The notes under the pieces are model-generated. The model searched no databases. It was not told where the DNA came from and was given only the letters and a program-made list of their open reading frames with translations. The position numbers were made by a program, and so were the translations under genes. Shown here one piece after another: positions 3,194 to 19,161 of a stretch of DNA of 64,000 nt. Origin of the DNA: Vreelandella populi (GTDB lineage Bacteria > Pseudomonadota > Gammaproteobacteria > Pseudomonadales > Halomonadaceae); assembly GCF_003989825.1 (NCBI RefSeq), contig NZ_RZHE01000006.1, forward strand, positions 434,001 through 498,000, given 5' to 3'. The first letter of the stretch is position 1. Every line of letters starts with the position of its first letter.

Positions 3194-3382
3194 TTACTCT
3201 GTTTCACTTTCGCTATTACGTTCGCGCTGAATGCGCTGATAGATCTCTTCACGGTGTACAGCAACATCTTTCGGCGCATTGACGCCGATACGTACCTGGT
3301 TACCTTTCACACCTAGCACTGTGACGGTGATTTCATCACCAATCATCAGCGTTTCGCCAACACGGCGAGTTAGGATGAGCAT
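3194..3382 (-). CDS. csrA: Carbon storage regulator CsrA (RsmA)
   Basis: 62-aa dimeric RNA-binding protein that recognises GGA in hairpin loops and blocks translation or alters stability of target mRNAs. The start [17 protein letters not shown] and the key residues L4, R6, R7 and R44 (in VHREEIY) are all present. The ATG at 3382 is preceded by AAGGAG, which itself contains a CsrA-type GGA. Its position after lysC and before tRNA-Ser is the conserved Pseudomonas/Halomonas arrangement. A candidate antagonist small RNA lies at 14858-15032. A longer in-frame start upstream is not credible, as the family begins at MLIL. Confidence 0.97.
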
Positions 3383-12760: not shown

Positions 12761-13084
12761 ATGACGTTTGTCGTTACCGAAAACTGCATCCAATGCAAAT
12801 ACACCGACTGTGTCGAAGTTTGCCCGGTTGACTGCTTTTACGAAGGCCCCAACTTCCTGGTTATTCACCCGGATGAGTGCATCGACTGCGCCCTGTGCGA
12901 GCCCGAGTGTCCGGCCGAGGCGATATTCTCAGAAGATGAGCTGCCCGATGGCCAGGAGCAGTTTATCGAGATTAACGCCGAGCTTTCGGAAGTGTGGCCC
13001 AATATTTCTGAAAAGAAAGATGCCCTGCCGGATGCTGAAGAGTGGGATGGCAAGAGCGGCAAAATCGAGAAGCTCGAACGTTAA
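12761..13084 (+). CDS. fdxA: Seven-iron ferredoxin FdxA
   Basis: 107-aa soluble electron carrier with a [3Fe-4S] and a [4Fe-4S] cluster. The N-terminal block [17 protein letters not shown] carries the first cysteine set, and [12 protein letters not shown] the second. The long C-terminal extension ([14 protein letters not shown]) is typical of the Azotobacter/Pseudomonas FdI type. It is commonly next to mutS in gammaproteobacteria, as here. It is transcribed alone between the mutS terminator and its own terminator. Confidence 0.96.
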
Positions 13085-13256: not shown

Positions 13257-14648
13257 TTACGCCGCTTTAGGCTCGCCCAACTGATCATCATTAGATGCAA
13301 AGACATCGCCATCGTGCTGATTGAGTAGGCGACTGGTCACCGTGCCCGCCATCATCGAGCCATTCACGTTAATCGCTGTGCGGCCCATGTCGATCAGTGG
13401 CTCGATGGAGATCAAAAGGCCCGCCAGGGCAATCGGCAAATCGAGCGTCGAAAGCACGATGATGGCCGCAAAGGTTGCCCCACCGCCGACACCGGCAATG
13501 CCGAAAGACGCAAGTGTAACCACCAATACCAGCGTAGCCAAAAACTCAAACGATAGCGGATCGATACCTACGGTAGGCGCGATCATCATGGCCAGCATCG
13601 CAGGATACAGGCCCGCACAGCCGTTTTGCCCAATCGTTGCGCCAAAGGAGGCAGCAAAATTAGCAATCGCGGGCGGCACGCCAATACGGCTCACCTGGGC
13701 TTCGATATTCAAGGGAATCGTGGCCGCGCTGGAGCGTGAGGTAAAGGCGAAGGTCAGCACCGGCCATACCTTATAGAAATAGCGCCGCGGATTGACCCCA
13801 ACACCCAGCAGGAATAGCGCGTGCATGACCAGAATCAGCGTCAGGCCGACGTAGGATGCGACCACGAAGCCGAGCAGGCCGAGAATATCGCCCATGTTAG
13901 AGGTGGATACCACCTTGGTCATCAGCGCCATTACCCCGTAAGGCGTCAGGCGAATCACCATGCGCACCAAGCGCATGATCCACTTCTGCACAAGGTCGAT
14001 ACCTTCGATCAGCTTATCGCCAAGTGCCGCATTTTCACGCTTGATACCCAGCGCCGCCATGCCCAGAAACGTGGCAAAGATCACCACACTGATAATGGAA
14101 GTGGGGCGCGCACCCGCCAGGTCCTGAAACGGGTTGGCAGGAATAAACGAAAGCAGCAGTTGCGGCACACTCAGGTCTGCAACCTGGGCACTGCGCTCAA
14201 TGATAGCCTGCCCCCGCTCCAGTTCACGAGCCCCCTGCACCAGTCCTTCGGCAGAAAGACCAAATAACTGGGTCATGCTGATACCGATGACGGCAGAGAT
14301 GGCGGTAGTGATCATCAGCATGGCCAGTACGCCCAGACTGATCTTGCCTAGCGCACTGGCATCATGCAGCCGGGTAACAGCAGAAAGAATGGTGACCAGC
14401 ACCAAAGGCATGATGATCATTTTCAGCAGCTGAACATAACCGCCGCCTACTAGATTGACCCAGTCGATAGTCCCCTCAAGTACCGCCGAATCCGCAAACA
14501 GCCACTGTAATAGCGCTCCCAACCCAACGCCGATTACCAGCCCTGCTAACACCACCTTCGACAGGCTTGCGCCGCTTCGCTGCCAGCGCGCCAACAACGC
14601 GATGGCCAGCACAAAGACCAACACGTTGATCGTAACCCACCCAAGCAT
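13257..14648 (-). CDS. DAACS-family symporter, cystine (TcyP/YdjN)-like
   Basis: Inner-membrane sodium- or proton-coupled carrier of the dicarboxylate/amino acid:cation symporter family, 463 aa, with many hydrophobic helices. The family signature appears in [25 protein letters not shown], and a second loop reads [20 protein letters not shown]. The N-terminal layout and IPLNIE resemble TcyP/YdjN cystine carriers more than GltP, but the substrate cannot be proved. The ATG at 14648 is chosen because GGGGAG precedes it; a longer in-frame start at 14684 would overlap the leader terminator. The mRNA leader contains that terminator at 14670-14697, suggesting attenuation. Confidence 0.78.
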
Positions 14649-14669
14649 ATTTACCGTCTCCCCTAAACT

Positions 14670-14697
14670 AAAAAAACGGCACATCAGTGATGTACCG
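14670..14697 (-). terminator. Intrinsic terminator inside the symporter leader
   Basis: On the minus strand, CGGTACAT pairs with ATGTGCCG (one G-U) around a 5-nt loop and is followed by seven T. The T tract ends 22 nt before the ATG at 14648. A second palindrome, GCTGACGTCAGC (14697-14708), lies immediately upstream and shares one base. The position is that of an attenuator or the end of a short RNA. Confidence 0.7.
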
Positions 14698-14857: not shown

Positions 14858-14882
14858 AAAAAAAGGCGGCCCGTAGGCCGCC
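14858..14882 (-). terminator. Intrinsic terminator of the candidate Csr small RNA
   Basis: Seven-bp perfect GC stem GGCGGCC/GGCCGCC with a 4-nt loop and a 7-T tract on the minus strand. Confidence 0.9.
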
Positions 14883-15032
14883 CGCTCCAAGCACTTCCTC
14901 TGACCACTCCCTGTGTCAAACTCCTCAGGTAACTTCCCTACCAAGGCTCACATCAATGTGGCACCCGGCGTACCTGTCTACACCCCGTTACATTGCATCC
15001 TGTCTAAAGCATCCCTGCCTCCCCTGTCCTGT
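14858..15032 (-). ncRNA. Candidate CsrA-sequestering small RNA (CsrB/RsmZ type)
   Basis: About 175 nt on the minus strand with nine GGA motifs between 15029 and 14886. They read AGGAC, GGGGAGG, AGGGATG, AGGATG, AGGGAAG, GAGGAG, AGGGAG, GAGGAAG and TGGAGC; AGGGA sits in a CAC/GTG hairpin loop. It ends in a perfect GGCGGCC/GGCCGCC terminator plus seven T (14858-14882). Upstream is a promoter-like TTGAGA, 16-nt spacer, CACAAT (15065-15038). The eno terminator (15080-15110) separates it from eno. A perfect GacA box lies about 180 bp upstream. No ORF is present. GGA density, terminator, promoter and GacA box together are what CsrB, RsmX, RsmY and RsmZ genes show; CsrA titration is inferred. Confidence 0.82.
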
Positions 15033-15037
15033 TAAGC

Positions 15038-15065
15038 ATTGTGGCAGATAACGATGGCTTCTCAA
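15038..15065 (-). promoter_or_regulatory. Promoter of the candidate Csr small RNA
   Basis: Minus strand: -35 TTGAGA (5/6 match), 16-nt spacer, -10 CACAAT (4/6 match). It predicts transcription start near 15032, just before the first GGA. A weak -10 fits an activator-dependent promoter. Confidence 0.55.
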
Positions 15066-15079
15066 GGCGGGCAAAATGC

Positions 15080-15110
15080 AAAAAGGCGAGCCCTTAGGGT
15101 CCGCCTTTCT
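15080..15110 (-). terminator. Intrinsic terminator of eno
   Basis: AAAGGCG/CGCCTTT outer stem with an inner CCC/GGG, T-rich on both sides. It lies about 150 nt past the eno stop and separates eno transcription from the small-RNA promoter. Confidence 0.75.
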
Positions 15111-15202: not shown

Positions 15203-15220
15203 TGTAAGAGATGTCTTACA
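15203..15220 (-). promoter_or_regulatory. GacA-binding box (upstream activating sequence)
   Basis: TGTAAGAGATGTCTTACA exactly matches the TGTAAG-N6-CTTACA palindrome bound by GacA/UvrY upstream of rsm/csr small RNA genes. Its centre is about 180 bp from the predicted small-RNA start, with an AT-rich linker between. It also overlaps a perfect 13-bp inverted repeat (15204-15216 with 15229-15241). Confidence 0.8.
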
Positions 15221-15261
15221 AATTTTTGAGACATCTCTTACGTGACAAGCGAAAACAGCCT

Positions 15262-19161
<3,900 letters not shown>

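Follow-up and report, generated by a model that had tools for sequence, protein, structure and literature searches.

The window, i.e. the whole 64-kb stretch of Vreelandella populi DNA that was analysed, carries on its minus strand at 14858–15031 a short unit that is predicted to encode a GacA-activated, CsrA-titrating noncoding RNA of ~174 nt, a reading to which we assign a probability of about 0.93. Judged by its place in the order eno–box–RNA–fdxA–mutS–cinA–recA, this sRNA is also the probable orthologue of Pseudomonas RsmZ and of Alcanivorax CsrR2.

The 3′-end of the unit is placed at a T run and its 5′-end at ~15031 is a prediction. On the minus strand of 14858–15032, nine GGA motifs were counted (first G at 15029, 15022, 15014, 15000, 14937, 14924, 14910, 14898 and 14888), and by scanning both strands this was found to be the sole place in the 64 kb with nine GGA within 145 nt. 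Because the G-rich composition (39% G) by itself reaches nine GGA in 8.8% of mononucleotide and 14.6% of dinucleotide shuffles (composition kept, 5000 trials each), the count alone is not decisive, and it is the conservation in relatives that decides. The unit closes with an intrinsic terminator at 14858–14883 on the minus strand (stem 14883–14864 of eight pairs, seven of them G-C, followed by T7), and is preceded by a sigma-70-type promoter at 15038–15065 on the same strand (TTGAGA-N16-CACAAT, with TG before the −10). These two signals are weak evidence by themselves, since the scans yield 0.8 promoters and 0.7 terminators per shuffled sequence against the one promoter found here; the −10 CACAAT with a TTG-type −35 recurs in 25 of the 30 loci L005–L034. 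No ORF of 80 or more codons overlaps the sRNA, and eight ORFs of 20–40 codons do so on the two strands, none of them having an ATG start on the sense strand. The single-sequence fold of the window sRNA is not unusually stable (z −1.19, with 26 of 200 shuffles equally good); of its nine GGA, five are mostly free of pairing (0.85–0.99) and the other four pair partly (0.32–0.45).

Upstream of the sRNA by 230 bp and on the same strand lies eno (enolase, 15262–16551, minus; NCBIfam TIGR01060, 664.5 bits), and an eno terminator is placed between the two at 15085–15105 (minus), which is imperfect here (a 2×2 mismatch), perfect in L011 and L012, and was missed by the strict terminator scan of the window. 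On the other side, a dicarboxylate/amino-acid:cation symporter gene (GltP/DctA-like, 13257–14684, minus; best NCBIfam model GltP with 106.9 bits, below cut-off) is followed by fdxA (ferredoxin, 12761–13084, plus; NCBIfam NF045490, 178 bits), which is convergent with the sRNA. An earlier note on this DNA, made from the letters alone, had listed nine GGA in about 145 nt, a GC stem with seven T, a promoter-like TTGAGA-N16-CACAAT, the lack of an ORF and an independent eno terminator upstream. The recount and the scans bore out the first three; the claim of no ORF holds for those of at least 80 codons, and the eno terminator is present as claimed, in a form less perfect than in the two relatives.

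At 15203–15220, centred at ~−180 from the predicted start, lies an upstream activating sequence that matches the GacA box TGTAAG-N6-CTTACA without a mismatch and corresponds to the Gac box consensus as published in the relevant passages of PMC11837529 and PMC3171408; neither this box nor the link to fdxA had figured in the earlier note. Four perfect boxes are found in the 3.80-Mb genome versus one for a backward-pattern control, and 41 same-genus genomes together contain 142 perfect boxes versus 8 sites of the backward pattern, 38 of the 41 having at least one perfect box. Upstream of the sRNA, the box is perfect in all 21 loci L005–L025 and has one mismatch in L026 and L027, and the best sites in L028–L034 carry 1–4 mismatches. 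A second, degenerate GacA-box-like site lies at 15225–15242, i.e. 22 bp (two helical turns) further upstream than the perfect box, with 3 mismatches here and 1–3 in the other same-genus loci L006–L027.

By BLAST with the window sRNA, matches were obtained in 23 of 25 same-genus genomes (the window genome counted) and in 78 of 151 family genomes, many of those outside the genus comprising the 3′-end or the terminator only. The 43 divergent sequences of alignment A2 (see below) were turned into a covariance model (R1), which found a match at E ≤ 0.01 in 24 of the 25 same-genus and 129 of the 151 family genomes, with a best E below 1e-10 in 111 of the 151, counts that hold partly by construction because some of these genomes are likely of the same species as the training loci of R1. 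Such a covariance search of Halomonadaceae for a conserved GGA-rich RNA had been proposed in the earlier note, and its outcome speaks for the proposal. Family genomes with weak or no R1 match belong mostly to a few genera (g3, g4, g5 and others), and in one same-genus genome (G146) neither the sRNA, by BLAST or R1, nor a perfect GacA box was detected. Six further, weak matches to R1 appear in the window's own genome at E ≤ 10; three of them (L216, L217 and L219) were rejected as paralogues, being gene ends with a terminator, and in the remaining three 15–20 positions are matched.

To place the RNA among named species, a genome collection was scanned with a degenerate pattern for the sRNA 3′-end, which returned at least 120 matches in at least 119 stretches. 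Among the matches listed, 79 of 120 (78 loci) have the end of a same-strand eno at most 1.2 kb upstream, and for these 79 the GacA box has no mismatch in 28, at most one in 51 and at most two in 70. No box with two or fewer mismatches was found at any of the 41 listed matches without eno, which include Streptomyces and other chance matches, and of 1580 equally sized windows drawn at random from the syntenic loci, a set in which some overlap the true box, 43 contain one. Departures of the box from the consensus are symmetric in 11 of the matches listed (TGTAGG...CCTACA) and one-sided in others; no box with up to two mismatches was present in nine of the 79 syntenic matches listed (L097, L110, L116, L124, the second match of L128, L146, L177, L196 and L211). 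A convergent fdxA follows within 500 bp in 62 of these 79 listed matches and within 2 kb in 69, and was not found in 10. The named loci include those of Vreelandella boliviensis, V. aquamarina, V. hamiltonii and Litchfieldella (Halomonas) anticariensis FP35, the last (L106) having the sRNA between eno and fdxA, a box with one mismatch and the fdxA end ~90 bp away. The symporter gene that separates the sRNA from fdxA in the window is absent from most syntenic loci found, and an sRNA–fdxA gap of ~1.8 kb is seen also in V. nanhaiensis (L103), V. songnenensis (L171), V. zhanjiangensis (L162) and L201. By this shared gap, the window's place is probably near the three named species. Two of three sampled genomes of genus g8 (G031, locus L251; G046, locus L252) have four tandem copies of a GGA-rich unit between eno and fdxA, and no GacA box with up to two mismatches was found at these two loci.

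Beyond a hand-picked alignment (A1) of 13 of 30 loci, the structure was assessed on alignment A2, for which only matches of at least 175 nt were taken and the 79 syntenic matches were reduced to one per similarity cluster (43); dropping the second match of L128 and adding the window gave 43 rows. Across these divergent homologues three hairpins with many compensatory changes are seen: 93.2% of cells pair over the 32 pairs counted, two-sided changes occur at 20 of the 32, and the double-change cells number 178 versus 60.6 ± 5.5 in shuffles, none of 500 shuffles being as high. Sliding the partners by 1–3 columns lowers the pairing to 38–53%. In the terminator stem, 100% of counted cells are paired and one pair exchanges among G-C, A-U and G-U. 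Before the terminator the most conserved trinucleotide is GGA, with seven columns occupied in at least 60% of rows, followed by AGG with four; the seven GGA columns are kept in 31–43 of the 43 rows and none of them falls in a conserved stem, though in columns 1–114 of A2 no stems are predicted, so that for three of the seven 'unpaired' means that no conserved stem was found there. On the retention of the GGA motifs in relatives at the same locus, on which the earlier note had staked its proposal, the 43 homologues thus return conservation. The GGA loop of the inner hairpin is kept in 25 of the 43 rows and lost in the window row, i.e. one GGA loop of the family has decayed in the window's clade.

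These comparisons also bear on what else the unit could be. As the symporter gene lies on the same strand and starts ~170–210 nt past the T run of the sRNA, the RNA could be imagined as a riboregulatory 5′ leader of that gene; yet a conserved terminator intervenes, and the RNA persists in the 62 of 79 listed matches where a convergent fdxA follows within 500 bp and so leaves no room for a symporter, which makes a leader very improbable. An origin as an eno 3′-UTR-derived or read-through product without regulation of its own, to which the shared strand and the 230-bp distance from eno would lend themselves, is no more probable than the leader, because the eno terminator (perfect in L011 and L012) stands in between, the sRNA has its own conserved promoter, and the GacA box sits between eno and the sRNA. 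Least probable of all is a non-functional GGA-rich spacer: composition alone can reach the GGA count, but the conservation of GGA and the compensatory pairing across 43 divergent sequences contradict it. All three were rejected on this evidence; the GacA-activated, CsrA-titrating RNA is the preferred reading.

The window has the gene order recA–cinA–mutS–fdxA–(symporter)–sRNA–eno, and most of the named relatives found have eno–GacA box–sRNA–fdxA with the sRNA convergent with fdxA. In Pseudomonas rsmZ adjoins fdxA, according to a passage of PMC9788540, and the rsmZ region is described in part of PMC4353343 as including fdxA, mutS and rpoS. The other neighbour is not rpoS here; it is eno, in the window as in 79 of the 120 matches listed. 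With Rfam, no RNA was matched at the sRNA at gathering score, only chance-level matches appeared at the sRNA locus at E ≤ 10, and no Csr family was found at E ≤ 1 on nine divergent relatives. The RsmZ model RF00166 matched neither the window sRNA nor any place in its own genome; in the family it was over cut-off in none of 61 genomes and weak (E ≤ 1) in 31 of the 61, a level at which 5 of 14 unrelated controls also match. Of 115 genomes across the order, three have a match over cut-off and 23 have one at E ≤ 0.01; with 2 of the 14 unrelated controls matching at the latter threshold, weak RF00166 matches are unspecific. In a scan of order-wide fdxA loci for GGA density, fdxA was recognised in 23 of 30; nine of these 23 loci, of which two come from the window's own family, have at least 8 GGA per 150 nt on the fdxA-convergent strand, and on the opposite strand none of the 23 exceeds 6 per 150 nt.

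We regard it as likely, at odds of three or four to one in everyday terms, that the sRNA is the Halomonadaceae positional counterpart and orthologue of Pseudomonas RsmZ rather than of independent origin, an orthology that rests on position, regulation and architecture and not on sequence, because RF00166 has no match in the window and is over cut-off in 0 of 61 family genomes. That a CsrA-titrating, GacA-controlled RNA arose or moved independently beside fdxA is the main alternative, and an unlikely one. It would agree with the missing RF00166 match, with the greater length of the Halomonadaceae RNA (~174 nt versus 118–137 nt in the three over-cut-off RsmZ matches), and with the finding that 12 of the 23 order genomes carry their RF00166 match elsewhere than at fdxA, one of these matches (G170) being over cut-off. 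Against it stands the shared convergent placement by fdxA, which besides the Halomonadaceae loci (62 of the 79 matches listed, ≤500 bp) also holds, at ≤1 kb, for the RF00166 matches of 11 order genomes out of the 23, drawn from seven families and including two of the three over cut-off and one (G215) only 14 bp from fdxA. An upstream box with up to two mismatches is moreover present at six of the nine GGA-dense order fdxA loci, and of 20 loci fetched from the family for a sub-cut-off RF00166 match, four (L035, L036, L037 and L042) have the match convergent with fdxA, while in L038/L253 (L253 from genus g22) it follows an RpoS-type gene.

As for the mechanism class, CsrB and CsrC of enterobacteria are multi-GGA CsrA sponges activated by BarA/UvrY (GacS/GacA), and their loci and length differ from those of the window sRNA. 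The latter has no Rfam match, and thus none to the models RF00018 and RF00084, which we take to be CsrB/CsrC. RsmX, too, combines a GacA box with GGA hairpins. The same holds for RsmY of Pseudomonas as depicted in part of PMC4353343, where the genomic neighbours of rsmY differ from those seen here; no Rfam match relates the window sRNA to either of the two. The closest likeness is to RsmZ (RF00166, PrrB_RsmZ), which in the passages of PMC4353343 and PMC9788540 devoted to it bears GGA, a Rho-independent terminator and an upstream GacA box and is convergent with fdxA, and from which the window sRNA differs in being longer, without an Rfam match and neighboured upstream by eno rather than rpoS. 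Likewise, a section of PMC9788540 describes CsrR2 of Alcanivorax dieselolei, from a dRNA-seq study, as a putative CsrA-titrating RNA that is transcribed independently and has a ferredoxin gene next to it; according to that section it is antisense to fdx, whereas the Halomonadaceae RNA ends before fdxA in the loci measured and in the window the symporter gene separates the two.

The other parts of the circuit are present. The csrA gene, whose product is the predicted target, is at 3194–3382 on the minus strand (NF002469, 120.6 bits, over cut-off), ~11.5 kb from the sRNA as the earlier note had put it. A GacA/UvrY homologue with 54% identity to E. coli UvrY adjoins uvrC and scores 291.7 bits with the NCBIfam UvrY/SirA/GacA model (cut-off 280), and a BarA/GacS-like hybrid kinase shows 35% identity across residues 5–917 of 918, its best NCBIfam model being BarA, yet below cut-off (627 of 890 bits). 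In the mechanism that these parts suggest, GacS would phosphorylate GacA, which would bind the TGTAAG-N6-CTTACA box ~180 bp upstream and drive transcription from the sigma-70-type promoter; the sRNA would expose several GGA, most of them outside conserved stems (in hairpin loops, internal loops and linkers), and these would bind CsrA dimers, so that CsrA-repressed mRNAs would be freed, with a corresponding physiological effect. The proposal that this is the antagonist RNA of the Gac/Csr system gains support from the conserved GacA box, the conserved GGA, the compensatory stem changes and the fdxA–rsmZ synteny. The label 'CsrB/RsmZ-type' survives as to the CsrA-sponge class, although a counterpart of RsmZ is preferred over a generic type, and eno does lie upstream as a marker of the locus, with fdxA as a further conserved partner.

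None of the three further perfect GacA boxes that the genome contains precedes a similar RNA. One (L002, 1501–1518) lies between the divergent hcp and tssB genes of type VI secretion; in a survey of 22 loci, one box per genome, a perfect box at hcp–tssB was recognised by sequence motifs in two other same-genus genomes (L308 and L311) as well, and direct GacA control of the type VI secretion system through it is possible. Another (L003, 1501–1518) is upstream of a 40-codon ORF (MQHSTTQYP start, by eye) with a Shine-Dalgarno-like sequence, and has a further short ORF and a gene for a thiamine-pyrophosphate enzyme (by eye, poxB-like) as neighbours. The third (L001, 1501–1518) has a 34-codon ORF (MEEQWKAV start, by eye) ~95 nt downstream and a manganese catalase gene in its neighbourhood.

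At this last locus a candidate second RNA family was observed, a ~110-nt unit with four GGA and a terminator (L001/L056, in L056 at ~1515–1632, contig C3), with a copy of 73% identity on another contig (L059, ~1490–1620, C13); because the L001/L056 RNA lies upstream of the neighbouring GacA box, it is not driven by that box. Of 81 same-genus genomes, 10 carry a match to this RNA, which in two of the 10 is degenerate or reduced to the terminator (L290 and L291); outside the genus, the one match among 38 family genomes searched spans just 31 nt. An alignment (A3) was made of 12 of 15 loci, L283 being omitted for an internal deletion, L290 because most of its GGA are lost and L291 because it has the terminator alone; all four GGA are kept in the 12 aligned copies and 95.2% of cells in the stems pair, with one pair changed on both sides in 6 of 12 (A-U versus G-C), covariation being otherwise weak and the observed paired percentage being reached by 27 of 500 shuffles. 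The 350 nt that precede each of the 15 loci contain no box with fewer than 3 mismatches. Apart from tRNAs in L282, L286 and L294, Rfam yields nothing at gathering score, and phage records contain no match to this RNA. The family is a candidate for a further CsrA-binding RNA.

More tentatively, and with somewhat less than even confidence, the fdxA-linked Csr sponge may be one ancient locus shared by several families of the order, whose sequence has turned over beyond recognition and whose copy number is free to change, as in the four tandem copies of L251 and L252; the second, shorter GGA-hairpin RNA, with two copies lacking a GacA box in the window's clade, would then provide Gac-independent CsrA titration, and Gac would feed both the sponge and, via the hcp–tssB box in three genomes, a type VI secretion locus.

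RNAs of this kind are well known, and their Halomonadaceae representative is apparently undescribed in the open-access literature, where our searches turned up no account of a Csr/Rsm sponge RNA for Halomonas or its family; the Halomonas passages of PMC7366521, PMC12889724 and PMC13414033 describe none. In Halomonas anticariensis, quorum sensing is under GacS/GacA control, as reported in part of PMC4187203, and the cascade drawn for this species in a section of a 2020 comparative paper runs GacS-GacA, [CsrA], with the sRNA given as 'Unknown' and with quorum sensing, exopolysaccharide and biofilm as the listed outputs (PMC7366521). The Rfam RsmZ model misses counterpart loci of the kind found here, and the strand convergent with fdxA, in the vicinity of that gene, is a practical place to look for the Csr sponge in this order. 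For H. anticariensis, the predicted sRNA locus makes the missing link of the cascade directly testable.
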